The translations under genes and the position numbers were made by a program. From Alphaproteobacteria bacterium (lineage in GTDB: Bacteria; Pseudomonadota; Alphaproteobacteria; UBA7985; JAUIBT01): 55,136 nucleotides of DNA. How positions within the stretch are numbered: position 1 is the first letter of the stretch; each line of letters begins with the position of its first letter. The notes beneath the pieces were generated by a model. The model had not been told where the DNA came from. It saw only the letters and a program-made list of their open reading frames with translations, and ran no database searches. The stretch covers positions 1 to 55,136 of the forward strand of contig JAUIBT010000024.1 in NCBI GenBank assembly GCA_030428255.1, written 5' to 3'. Shown here piece after piece: positions 22,144 through 26,101 of the stretch.

Positions 22144-22845
22144 TCATCGGCTTTCCAATGCCTGCATGAACAGGGCGGCGCGGCCCAAGCCTTCTTGGTC
22201 GATGCCGTGCGCCAGGCCATGACAGGCGTGGGTCTGGACGGGCACCTCAAGTTGTTCCAGATGCTGCTTTGCGCTATCTAGGGCCTTGAAGGGCACGATG
22301 GGGTCTACGGTTCCGTGGACCAACAGCACCGGCGGCTTGACCTTGATCTCAGCGGCCAGGCGCTGCGGCCCGGCCAGTGAGCCCGAAAAGCCCACCACGC
22401 CCGCAGGCGCGTGCGGCAGACGCAAGCCCGCCTCCAGCGCCATCATGCAGCCCTGGCTAAAGCCCATCAGGATCAGATCGCCCCAAGCGAGCCCGCTGGC
22501 CTGCAAGGCGCGTTCCAGAAAATCAATCAGGCTAGGCCGGGCCTGTTGTGCGCCTTCGTCGCGCTCTTCTTGCGACAGGGTCATGAGCGGGAACCACTGG
22601 CGCCCGCCCATCAGCCCTGCTTGCGGTGCATTAGGCGATAACCAGAGGCTGGGCCCCGGCAAATGCGGGGCCAGCACAGGGGCCAGGCCGATTAGATCGT
22701 CCATATCAGCCCCAAAGCCATGCAGCACGACCACCAGACGCTTTGGGGCATCCGGGTCGCCGCCTGCCTCCCCCGAGCCCGTTCGGCTGTCGTATAGGCG
22801 CGCCTGGTAGGGCAAAGCGGCCAAAAGGGACTGGGGATCGGTCAT
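22144..22845 (-). CDS. Carboxylesterase/phospholipase (alpha/beta hydrolase)
   Basis: 233 residues, ATG at 22845. Belongs to the phospholipase/carboxylesterase family (PF02230): VVLHGFGADMDDLIGLAP oxyanion region, nucleophile Ser130 in GFSQG, Asp181 in HGTVDPIVP and His213 in CHGLAHGID. Acts on short-chain esters or lysophospholipids in the cytoplasm. It starts only 10 bp after the stop of the large pseudo-caspase gene in the same direction, so the two are probably in one transcript. Confidence 0.92.
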   Translation of the reverse strand: MTDPQSLLAALPYQARLYDSRTGSGEAGGDPDAPKRLVVVLHGFGADMDDLIGLAPVLAPHLPGPSLWLSPNAPQAGLMGGRQWFPLMTLSQEERDEGAQQARPSLIDFLERALQASGLAWGDLILMGFSQGCMMALEAGLRLPHAPAGVVGFSGSLAGPQRLAAEIKVKPPVLLVHGTVDPIVPFKALDSAKQHLEQLEVPVQTHACHGLAHGIDQEGLGRAALFMQALESR

Positions 22846-22855
22846 AGTCGTTTGC

Positions 22856-25675
22856 CTATAGCTTCTTCAGATCATCGAACAGGTCATCAACCAGGTCTTC
22901 CAGCGGCGAGACCTGCAAGCGCTGAGCGGCGGCTCGAGCTTCATTCACCCAGCGACCTCGCGGCCACTTGCGCAGATAGAACTCATAGCCCTGGCGCGAG
23001 TTGCGCTGCAAGACATCATCCCAGTCCTTGCGCTCGGACCCCAGGTAGGGCCCAAGCAAGGCGGCTTGAACGAAGACCGGGCGCCCGTTGACCTGAGAGC
23101 GATACCACAGGCCATCGCTGGTCTTGCCGTCCACCTGGATCGCATCTTGAGCCAGCAGGCGACGACCTATATCAACCTGATTACCATTGGGAGCATCCAA
23201 CAACTTGGTGCCGTCTTGGGTGATAACCCGCACCTCTGGTGTGATGTCTTCCACATCCAGGCCGGTGCCGCCCGACGCGCCCTCATCGCTCAGGTGAGAG
23301 AAGCGGATGTAGCCCTCAATTCGGCCACTGCCCCCACTCCGCGCACGGACTTTGACCCAATCGCGCCCCACGACACGGGCAATGACCCGCACCCGCACGC
23401 CATCGCTTAAGCTCAACAAAATGGGCGAACGACGATTGGCTTGCTCAAAGATCCGCGTGGGGCGGTTGGTGACCATGCGCACATCCATGGGCTCTTCGGT
23501 GTCCGAGGTACCGCCGCCAGTCAGCGCGGCAATCCTGGCTTGCGCATCAGCGCGGAAGTCGCTGTCTGGATAGTCACGCAAGAAGATGCGCAGCTCGCGA
23601 ACCGTTGGGTTGTCGCCCAGCGCGCGCCAAGCCTGAAGGTCTGAACCTTCGTACTCGGCCAGCAGGTTTGCAAAGATATAGCCTTCGCGACGGCTGCTGC
23701 TTGTCCGCACGCGAACCTGAATCCAGGCGCGATCGGCGGTCATGGACACAGCGTCCAGAACCGTGTTGGCAGAGATGGTATCCAGGATTGCACCATCACG
23801 GCCCGGCGTCGCGCGCAAGCGCGAGGCGCGCAGCGTGTAGTAGGGCTTGTTGATCAGAATGACTGCGGGCTCGCTGGGCGTCAGAGCATCCAACAGCGCC
23901 TGCACCTGGGCAGCAAAGGGGCTGTCCGGGAAATTGCGCAAGAAGCGGCGCAGTGCACGGCGATTGTCGCTGTTTTGCACGGCTTCCCATGCCTCAAAAT
24001 CGGACCCGGCGTAAGCTTGCAGGTCCGAGCGCTCCATAAAGCCGCGACCGCCGCGAATTTCGACCTCGAACCAGGCGGTGCCGCTGACCGCGCCGATGAC
24101 GGTCAGCTTTTGCAGCGCGTTGAAGCGGCCCAAAACGGTGCCATCACGACGCGAAGGGAAATTATAGACCTGCGCTTCGCGCTCCAAGAAATAGAGCTGG
24201 TTGATCGGCGTCACCCGCAGACGGGCAAGGCGACGATCCAGCTCAGCGGCGAAAATGGCGGCCCGCTGTTGGCGCGCCTGCGATTCAAAGCGACCATTGG
24301 GGAAGCGCTGCAAGAAATCGTCCAAGGCGGCCATGTCGCCCGAGCGATTGACCTGCTGCCAAATCACGAATTCCGAGGTTGCAGCTGGCTCGATCAAGGT
24401 AGAATAGATAAAGGCCTGCTCGCCGTTTGGCAGCTCGATCAGATACCAGGACTTGCCCGAAACCCGGCCAATGACAGTAACTTGCGTATCGCGAGACAAG
24501 GTAGTGACCTTGCCAAAGTTGGTGCCTGGGCCCTGGCGGGTGTTGGAGGTCCGCTTGGTGATGTAGGTTTCGTTGATCGCGCGCAGACCATAGGAGTCGT
24601 AGAGCGCTGCCCGCTCCCGACGTGCTTGAGCGGCAAATACCCCGCCCGGATAGTCAGCCAAATAGGCATCATAGCCCGCCAAAGTGCCGCTGGCCTGCGC
24701 CTGATCCCAGGCGTCTTGCTCGGCTTGGCTGGCAAATCCGCCCGTGGTCGAGCCGCCCGCACTGGGCTGACCCGCCAGCGTTGTCGTGGAGACGAAATCC
24801 AACGACAATTGCGGGCGCAATTCGCCATTGCTGCGCTGGGCAACACTGACAACCAAGGTCGAAAGGGCCTCCATCAGGTCCATGCGACCATCGCGAACCA
24901 GGCTGGCCAAGAAGAGATTGACGAACAATTGGCCACCGCTGGAAGTCGTCGGCGTGCCACCGGATTGAGCAAACAAGACCAAGACATCAGCGCGCCCCAT
25001 TGGCTGGGTCAATGCGGCGCTGACCAGCCCGGCGCCATCGCCCAAGATCAGCTCAACATCGCCTGCCAGAGCGTGATCGTAGCCCCCGTTGACCAGCAAA
25101 GCGCCCGGTGCGCGGCCAGCCGACAAGGCGGCGACCAGCGCGTCCATATTCAGCGCTTTGCGATACAAGTCAAAGGCGTTGGTGACTTCCGCGTCGGTGG
25201 GAAGGATATAGCTGGTATTATCGACGCTCAACGTGTGCCCGCTATAGAAAACCAGCCTTTGCGAGGCGTCTTGCGACGAGGCAAAGAAATCGCCCACGCC
25301 CGCAATTAAGTCGGCTTGGTTGGCGTTCTCCAGCCGCGTCACCCGGTACCCCAAAGCCCGCAGCTCAAAGGCCAAGTCGCGGCCCTGGCGCAGCGCTCCG
25401 GTGACACGCGGCAGTTCGTCATAATCCTGATTGGCAATCAACAAGGCGTGCGGAATTCGAAGACCTTGTGCCTGCGCGGCACGGGGCAGCAACAGCAGGC
25501 TGACCGCCAGCGCCATCAGCGCTAGCATGATAAGGGACAGCGCGCCTCTCAGCGCTTGTTCTTTACTGTTGGTCTTTGCAACCACCAGAGCTTTGGAGCC
25601 CTTGCTCGCTTGGGTCCCGATCTGGGGCGATCGCGCCTCTTGATCACGAGATGGGATTGGACGGGAAGTACGCAT
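22856..25675 (-). CDS. Pseudo-caspase with five SH3-like domains and helical repeats
   Basis: 939 residues, ATG at 25675 after GGAAGGAG. Membrane anchor or signal at about 46-69 after a long basic N-terminus. Residues 72-290 are a caspase-like (C14) domain: ALLIANQDYDELPRVTGAL...DLAFELRALGYRV, then LVFYSGHTLSVDNTSYILPTD. His147 aligns with the caspase histidine, but the usual LDACR block reads LVNGGYD (residues 194-200), so the nucleophile is missing and the domain should be inactive as a protease. After it, five SH3b-like units (about 370-430, 510-570, 640-705, 750-815, 845-900) alternate with five helical units of the type W..a...g....l..FL..FP.g.f...A. Likely an envelope scaffold or peptidoglycan-associated protein; function unknown. 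Confidence 0.82.
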   Translation of the reverse strand: MRTSRPIPSRDQEARSPQIGTQASKGSKALVVAKTNSKEQALRGALSLIMLALMALAVSLLLLPRAAQAQGLRIPHALLIANQDYDELPRVTGALRQGRDLAFELRALGYRVTRLENANQADLIAGVGDFFASSQDASQRLVFYSGHTLSVDNTSYILPTDAEVTNAFDLYRKALNMDALVAALSAGRAPGALLVNGGYDHALAGDVELILGDGAGLVSAALTQPMGRADVLVLFAQSGGTPTTSSGGQLFVNLFLASLVRDGRMDLMEALSTLVVSVAQRSNGELRPQLSLDFVSTTTLAGQPSAGGSTTGGFASQAEQDAWDQAQASGTLAGYDAYLADYPGGVFAAQARRERAALYDSYGLRAINETYITKRTSNTRQGPGTNFGKVTTLSRDTQVTVIGRVSGKSWYLIELPNGEQAFIYSTLIEPAATSEFVIWQQVNRSGDMAALDDFLQRFPNGRFESQARQQRAAIFAAELDRRLARLRVTPINQLYFLEREAQVYNFPSRRDGTVLGRFNALQKLTVIGAVSGTAWFEVEIRGGRGFMERSDLQAYAGSDFEAWEAVQNSDNRRALRRFLRNFPDSPFAAQVQALLDALTPSEPAVILINKPYYTLRASRLRATPGRDGAILDTISANTVLDAVSMTADRAWIQVRVRTSSSRREGYIFANLLAEYEGSDLQAWRALGDNPTVRELRIFLRDYPDSDFRADAQARIAALTGGGTSDTEEPMDVRMVTNRPTRIFEQANRRSPILLSLSDGVRVRVIARVVGRDWVKVRARSGGSGRIEGYIRFSHLSDEGASGGTGLDVEDITPEVRVITQDGTKLLDAPNGNQVDIGRRLLAQDAIQVDGKTSDGLWYRSQVNGRPVFVQAALLGPYLGSERKDWDDVLQRNSRQGYEFYLRKWPRGRWVNEARAAAQRLQVSPLEDLVDDLFDDLKKL

Positions 25676-26101
25676 GGCTGGTCTCCTTCCAGGTATAATC
25701 GCGTCGCACTGTTTGGGCCAACAGGCCTGAGTCTGCTGTTTGAGGTCTAGCGGCGCGCGCCTAAACCAAAGCTGAACACAGGCCCCACGGTCAGTAAAGG
25801 ACGAATTTCAAACCGATGAGGCTCCATCGCATTTCTGCAGTATGTGGGGCGATTAGGGCGACAATCCAAGCCACTAAACCGCCACGGTAAAGCGTCTAGG
25901 TCTTGGGTTTAGGCCCCTAAACCCTTTCCGAATAAACGCTCTATAGTCCGCTTGGCCCATTTCAATTTTGCGAAAAACCATCCAAGTTTGATGCAAGCCC
26001 TGTCCTCCCCAAGGGTTAAGCGTCAGCGCGCCGCACCACTTCGGGCGGCGGCCAAGCCGCTCCACCTGACTTCCCGACCCCACCGAGCCTAGAGCCTAGC
26101 T
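25676..26101. other. Intergenic region with repeat fragment and palindrome
   Basis: About 425 bp between two divergent genes, so both promoters should lie here. It holds GCGCGCGCCTAAACCAAAGC near 25755, which equals the junction of the tandem units at 21101, and a 20-bp dyad at 25905-25924. A 69-codon frame on the minus strand lacks a ribosome site and family match and is not called. Confidence 0.5.
25905..25924. promoter_or_regulatory. 9-bp inverted repeat GGGTTTAGG-CC-CCTAAACCC
   Basis: Perfect 9-bp arms around two bases, about 180 bp before the cytochrome b561-like gene. There is no T run, so a regulator-binding dyad is more likely than a terminator. The LuxR-type regulator two genes on is a possible ligand, but nothing proves it. 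Confidence 0.45.

Follow-up and report, generated by a model that had tools for sequence, protein, structure and literature searches.

Introduction

Bacterial caspase homologues of the C14 family with a broken catalytic dyad have been reported in several surveys. In a 2012 count, only 75% of the alphaproteobacterial homologues kept the dyad (PMC3501461), and a 2019 survey listed 582 pseudo-orthocaspases in Alphaproteobacteria, over 96% of them in Rhizobiales (PMC6426788). In some cyanobacteria the only C14 gene is an inactive one (PMC5756287), and knocking out SyOC in Synechocystis produces a phenotype when the cells are under oxidative stress (PMC7889975). In Arg/Lys-specific relatives, the P1 residue of the substrate is held in the S1 pocket by an Asp of helix 1 and by an Asp located two residues before the Cys: Asp95 and Asp211 in TbMCA2 (PMC4357240), with Asp365 and Asp462 as their MALT1 counterparts (PMC4626109). 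According to the 2019 survey, pseudo-orthocaspases keep both Asp to a high degree irrespective of their dyad (PMC6426788). Peptides of peptidoglycan are the presumed ligands of secreted bacterial SH3 domains, including those fused to caspases (PMC5906684).

We describe here a pseudo-caspase encoded in a stretch of 55,136 nucleotides from an alphaproteobacterium (the window), and compare it across the 11 available genomes of the same order. These genomes, all draft MAGs, fall into three families named f1 (which holds the window's genus), f2, and f3. An earlier note on the window regarded inactive caspases used as scaffolds as poorly described in bacteria; this was inaccurate, as hundreds of alphaproteobacterial and cyanobacterial pseudo-orthocaspases are on record (PMC3501461, PMC6426788).

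Results

The Gene and Its Caspase Domain

The gene lies on the minus strand, and a clear ribosome-binding site precedes it:
22856–25675, minus strand: pseudo-caspase open reading frame of 939 aa with SH3b and helical repeats (ORF call, Pfam, genus orthologues)
25683–25690, minus strand: Shine-Dalgarno-like sequence GGAAGGAG, 7 nt before the start codon ATG (read directly)

The remaining two genomes of the genus each carried an orthologue with 68–69% identity, and these two genus members were the only matches when the GTDB contigs were scanned with the single window protein. Among the matches listed for a plasmid collection, all were distant (26–30%) and covered the caspase part of the protein. 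The caspase part and its key residues were positioned as follows:
24803–25450, minus strand: Peptidase_C14 (caspase p20-type) domain, residues 76–291 (Pfam, hhalign, family profile)
25385–25387, minus strand: Q97, at the position of an S1-pocket Asp found in 47/47 active domains and in MALT1 (alignment, gap-free from Y85 to G109)
25235–25237, minus strand: H147, the retained catalytic-type His, followed by T (alignment)
25082–25090, minus strand: N196-G197-G198 in place of Asp-x-Cys, the S1 Asp being replaced by Asn and the Cys by Gly (alignment)

Pfam Peptidase_C14 matched residues 76–291 with an E-value of 3.3e-10 and 40.5 bits (cut-off 21.4), and hhalign of the three genus proteins against five active alphaproteobacterial C14 domains gave a probability of 99.1. 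Among solved structures, the MALT1 paracaspase and caspase-1 were the best sequence matches. These matches were weak when the window protein was used by itself and strong when the family profile was used, MALT1 then reaching an E-value of 1.8e-15 and caspase-1 being matched too. We consider the caspase homology of the domain as settled at the sequence level. AF2 models, made for the full mature protein and for the caspase domain with an input of three sequences (that of the window and two relatives), had a pLDDT of about 30–36 in the caspase part (mean 36 for the domain alone). The 50 matches listed by Foldseek for the latter model were all caspases or MALT1, none with an E-value ≤ 0.001, a result at most consistent with a caspase-hemoglobinase fold. 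Since the mean pLDDT of the domain was 36, the fold assignment relies on the profiles, and the models were set aside as a proof of fold. Thus, of the caspase fold claimed in the earlier note, the homology stands, and the structure prediction proposed there as a check reached a pLDDT of about 30–36. No p10 domain was present, helical and SH3b units being the only ones found beyond residue 291.

The caspase His is H147, within the motif SGHTLS, and the LDAC of active relatives is replaced by VNGG (residues 195–198), with G198 at the position of the Cys. Both observations had been made in the earlier note, with the Cys block read as VNGGYD, and they proved correct. The window protein has no cysteine over its entire length, and a Cys located after the first caspase strand was found in 0/11 family members; there is therefore no substitute Cys nucleophile, and the objection foreseen in the note, that another Cys might do the work, cannot apply. 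The loss of the dyad is certain from the sequence. Keeping H147 and having G198 instead of Cys, the protein falls outside the active caspases and orthocaspases, defined by a His-Cys dyad, and inside the pseudo-orthocaspases, which are p20-type domains with a substituted dyad. The residue after the His, Gly in 96% of active domains, is T in the window protein, and this Gly was lost in f1 and f2.

A Cys-Less Protein Conserved in the Order

A Cys-less member was present in 11/11 genomes of the order, with one copy each. The His was kept in all of them. In the nucleophile column, f1 had Gly, f3 had Ala, and f2 varied between Gly, Ser, and Asn. All of the 47 further C14 domains compared, drawn from the same order and from the class, retained the His-Cys dyad. 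One could imagine that another residue has taken the place of the Cys, for instance in a Ser or His-based hydrolase, as Ser occupies the position in one member (L007) and H147 is invariant. The variation of this position between G, S, N, and A, never Cys, together with the erosion of the S1 and neighbouring active-site residues, makes such alternative catalysis very improbable.

In the tree, f1 and f2 formed one clade (SH-aLRT 99), and a single loss of the Cys, at or before their split, covers both families. The f3 Cys-less proteins joined this clade with a weak support (62), so f3 may have lost its Cys independently. Their placement with the active f3 proteins came near to rejection but fell short of it (p-AU 0.054). 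One f3 protein (L013, in G004:C21) keeps GHG and both S1 Asp, possesses only two SH3b units, and ends with an extra, unassigned C-terminal region.

Purifying selection acts on the dead caspase domain. Its dN/dS ranged from 0.04 to 0.16 for the pairs tested, most of which were near dS saturation, and was about equal in the repeats; the unsaturated pair L009/L010 (dS 0.27) showed a dN/dS of 0.16. Open reading frames were long and intact across the order's genomes, except for L019, a fragment of 377 aa located where its contig ends. The loss of several active-site positions is what would be expected of a gene decaying without function, but the intact frames and the low dN/dS, which largely refutes it, leave this explanation with hardly any credit.

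The reaction-centre family Photo_RC (PF00124) matched in 0/11 genomes of the order. A link to phototrophy was therefore rejected for these pseudo-caspases, and the tie proposed for pseudo-orthocaspases fails in this order.

Erosion of the S1 Pocket

Both S1 positions are Asp in the f2 and f3 members and are replaced by Gln and Asn (Q97 and N196) in 3/3 f1 proteins. The window protein thus lacks the acidic S1 pocket for Arg or Lys. Asp100, conserved in f1 and located one helical turn after Q97, could partly replace the lost S1 Asp. Because both Asp are highly conserved in the 2019 survey (PMC6426788), the window's genus is an exception.

These residues bear on the main rival to the role that we propose below. 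According to it, the protein would be a pseudo-protease, the pocket of which binds basic peptides without cutting them and acts as a sensor or a trap. The same has been argued for cyanobacterial pseudo-orthocaspases, in which the two Asp are highly conserved (PMC6426788), and the retention of both S1 Asp in f2 and f3 and of the His in 11/11 members agrees with it. In the three f1 proteins, however, both Asp are replaced and the Gly after the His is lost, so that substrate binding, plausible in f2 and f3, is less so in the window protein, and on the whole unlikely.

The distribution of the substitutions also allows a tentative two-step origin, which we consider possible rather than probable. 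The nucleophile would have been lost first, leaving a peptide-binding pocket as in f2 and f3, and the charge of the pocket next, giving the pure scaffold of f1; an order-wide core periplasmic scaffold would thus have arisen from a protease. If true, this would provide a graded natural series from a protease-like binder to a structural adaptor within one vertically inherited bacterial gene.

Probable Export Signal and Repeat Array

The caspase domain is preceded by a hydrophobic segment (the slash marks the putative cleavage point):
25469–25675, minus strand: N-terminal tail and hydrophobic segment, residues 1–69, ending with RAAQA/QG (read directly)

An A-x-A/Q-like site recurs across the genus and in f2. 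In f2 the signal peptides are short and of the ordinary kind; the f1 proteins have a 45-residue n-region. Given RAAQA/QG after the hydrophobic segment and the recurrent site, we favour a cleavable Sec signal peptide (AQA/Q) with a long n-region over a permanent anchor, and the membrane anchor proposed earlier was not supported. In view of this n-region, the f1 proteins could instead have a signal anchor.

Beyond the caspase domain, ten repeat units were delineated:
24599–24715, minus strand: helical (TPR-like) unit H1, residues 321–359 (family profiles)
24386–24577, minus strand: SH3b unit S1, residues 367–430, best Pfam SH3_3 match, pLDDT about 70–86 (Pfam, profiles, model)
24248–24370, minus strand: helical unit H2, residues 436–476 (family profiles)
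24011–24205, minus strand: SH3b unit S2, residues 491–555 (family profiles)
23876–23998, minus strand: helical unit H3, residues 560–600 (family profiles)
23651–23854, minus strand: SH3b unit S3, residues 608–675 (family profiles)
23519–23638, minus strand: helical unit H4, residues 680–719, overlapping a Pfam YfiO/BamD match at 691–718 (Pfam, profiles)
23285–23485, minus strand: SH3b unit S4, residues 731–797 (family profiles)
23045–23233, minus strand: SH3b unit S5, residues 815–877, directly after S4 (family profiles)
22910–23032, minus strand: helical unit H5, residues 882–922 (family profiles)

Pfam SH3_3 matched four stretches of the protein (E-value 2.6e-26). The repeat profiles were built from the family and include units hand-picked from the window protein, so their E-values lean towards it; the same layout was recovered in relatives left out of profile building. 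The order after the caspase domain is H-S-H-S-H-S-H-S-S-H. The five SH3-like and five helical repeats announced in the earlier note were thus recovered, and the alternation is not strict as had been stated there, because S4 and S5 are adjacent. In f2, five helical and four SH3b units alternate strictly. Compared with f1, these proteins are one SH3b unit short in the S4/S5 region (window positions 22910–23233, residues 815–922), which suggests a gain in f1 or a loss in f2. The final helical unit shows good conservation (GSERxxWD).

The helical unit resembles a BamD-type TPR, as indicated by the YfiO match. The first SH3b unit and its neighbouring helices were modelled by AF2 at a pLDDT of about 70–86, and the best Foldseek structural matches included SH3b-containing cell-wall enzymes and internalin B. 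Units S2 to S5 are diverged SH3b that may fail to recognise the canonical ligand. Five active C14 proteins from elsewhere in the class (L014, L015, L031, L060, and L082) share the helical unit and also carry an SH3b, and the array is therefore older than the loss of catalysis.

Gene Neighbourhood and Active Paralogues

The next gene downstream is on the same strand:
22144–22845, minus strand: Abhydrolase_2 carboxylesterase, 10 nt away, an operon partner at the genus level

The pair was tight in 3/3 genomes of the genus, with a 10-nt gap or, in L034 and L035, a 4-nt overlap, and about 10 kb downstream of the pseudo-caspase were collinear. The f2 neighbours differ (a MOSC protein, an RTX/M10_C protein, and a capsule-type protein), and the pairing with Abhydrolase_2 is not conserved there. 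Because of this difference no conserved partner emerges; the neighbourhood, syntenic in the genus only, was discarded as a clue. The esterase, the pairing of which is not conserved and which has no apparent signal peptide, was rejected as a general partner. In the f2 locus L086 (7893–11804), the pseudo-caspase adjoins a MOSC-domain gene, an RTX/Peptidase_M10_C gene is nearby, and the pseudo-caspase is followed by a 124-aa protein, common within f2, without any Pfam match.

The genome of the window contains three other C14 genes, all with an intact His-Cys dyad. Apparent signal peptides were seen in two of the active paralogues, L001 and L003; L001 contains 24 cysteines, unusual for a secreted protein. 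Two divergent active C14 genes with a SCFSG-type Cys lie back to back at L092 (G000:C28, 77250–78041 on the minus strand and 78803–79540 on the plus strand), and the two further genomes of the genus also have this pair. These paralogues open the possibility of a decoy, similar to c-FLIP, by which the dead protein would pair with active C14 enzymes of the same compartment and control them, as inactive homologues regulate active caspases in mammals (PMC3501461). However, the active paralogues branch far from the dead protein in the tree, and in five of the six f2 genomes, two of which are 94–96% complete, the conserved pseudo-caspase is the sole C14 domain and therefore cannot exist there mainly to regulate active caspases. 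The decoy is quite unlikely as the principal role, and could still be an added one in f1.

Discussion

We propose that the pseudo-caspase is secreted and probably serves as a non-catalytic adaptor of the periplasm or cell wall, the role that we consider the most likely. The Cys nucleophile of the caspase domain disappeared no later than the split of f1 and f2, and the domain cannot cleave peptides by the caspase mechanism. The acidic S1 pair has also been replaced in the window's genus (Q97 and N196). In this model, the protein would have been retained as an adaptor. The SH3b units would tether it to periplasmic proteins or to the peptide stems of peptidoglycan. The TPR-like helical units would keep the SH3b units apart and recruit partners, and the dead caspase domain would act as a protein-protein interaction module. 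Of the earlier note's suggestion of a dead caspase used as a scaffold, the loss of the nucleophile is supported, and the scaffold use would fit.

The dead protein is conserved in all 11 genomes examined, often without an active caspase alongside. The order breaks the proposed tie between pseudo-orthocaspases and photosynthesis, and the window's genus breaks the acidic-pocket rule. Its sister families differ in how far the active site has eroded, which makes the order a clean case for studying what the bacterial caspase fold does after the loss of proteolysis.

Comparison with Known Systems

The window protein resembles the bacterial pseudo-orthocaspases (PMC6426788; SyOC, PMC7889975) by its broken-dyad p20-type C14 domain, the absence of p10, and its conservation in clades. 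HA-type dyads, with the His kept and the Cys lost, have been reported among them, and some are predicted to be exported. The alphaproteobacterial ones are mostly from Rhizobiales, with YS, YA, FS, QC, or HA dyads, whereas the dyads observed here are H-G, H-S, H-N, or H-A. Pseudo-orthocaspases were proposed to occur in phototrophic orders and to have a highly conserved acidic pocket, neither being strictly defining; the present order has no reaction centres, and the pocket was lost in f1 and kept in f2 and f3. Neither PMC3501461 nor PMC6426788 refers to SH3 in its main text, while an SH3b and TPR-like array is present here.

The five active relatives cited above carry C14 followed by the same helical unit and SH3b as the window protein, but their His-Cys dyad is intact and they have two to four repeat units instead of nine or ten. 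MALT1 and caspase-1, the best matches among solved structures, are active His-Cys enzymes, and MALT1 keeps the S1 Asp where the window protein has Q97. The SH3b fold is shared with cell-wall proteins such as NlpC/P60 enzymes and internalin B, in which it targets a live peptidase or an adhesin, whereas the peptidase attached to it here is dead.

As broken bacterial caspases and SH3-caspase fusions have already been published, the window protein is a variant within a known kind. What is new is the dyad of His plus a small residue fixed in an order, the long array of SH3b and helical units, the disappearance of the S1 acids from one genus, the lack of phototrophy, and the status of sole C14 domain in f2.
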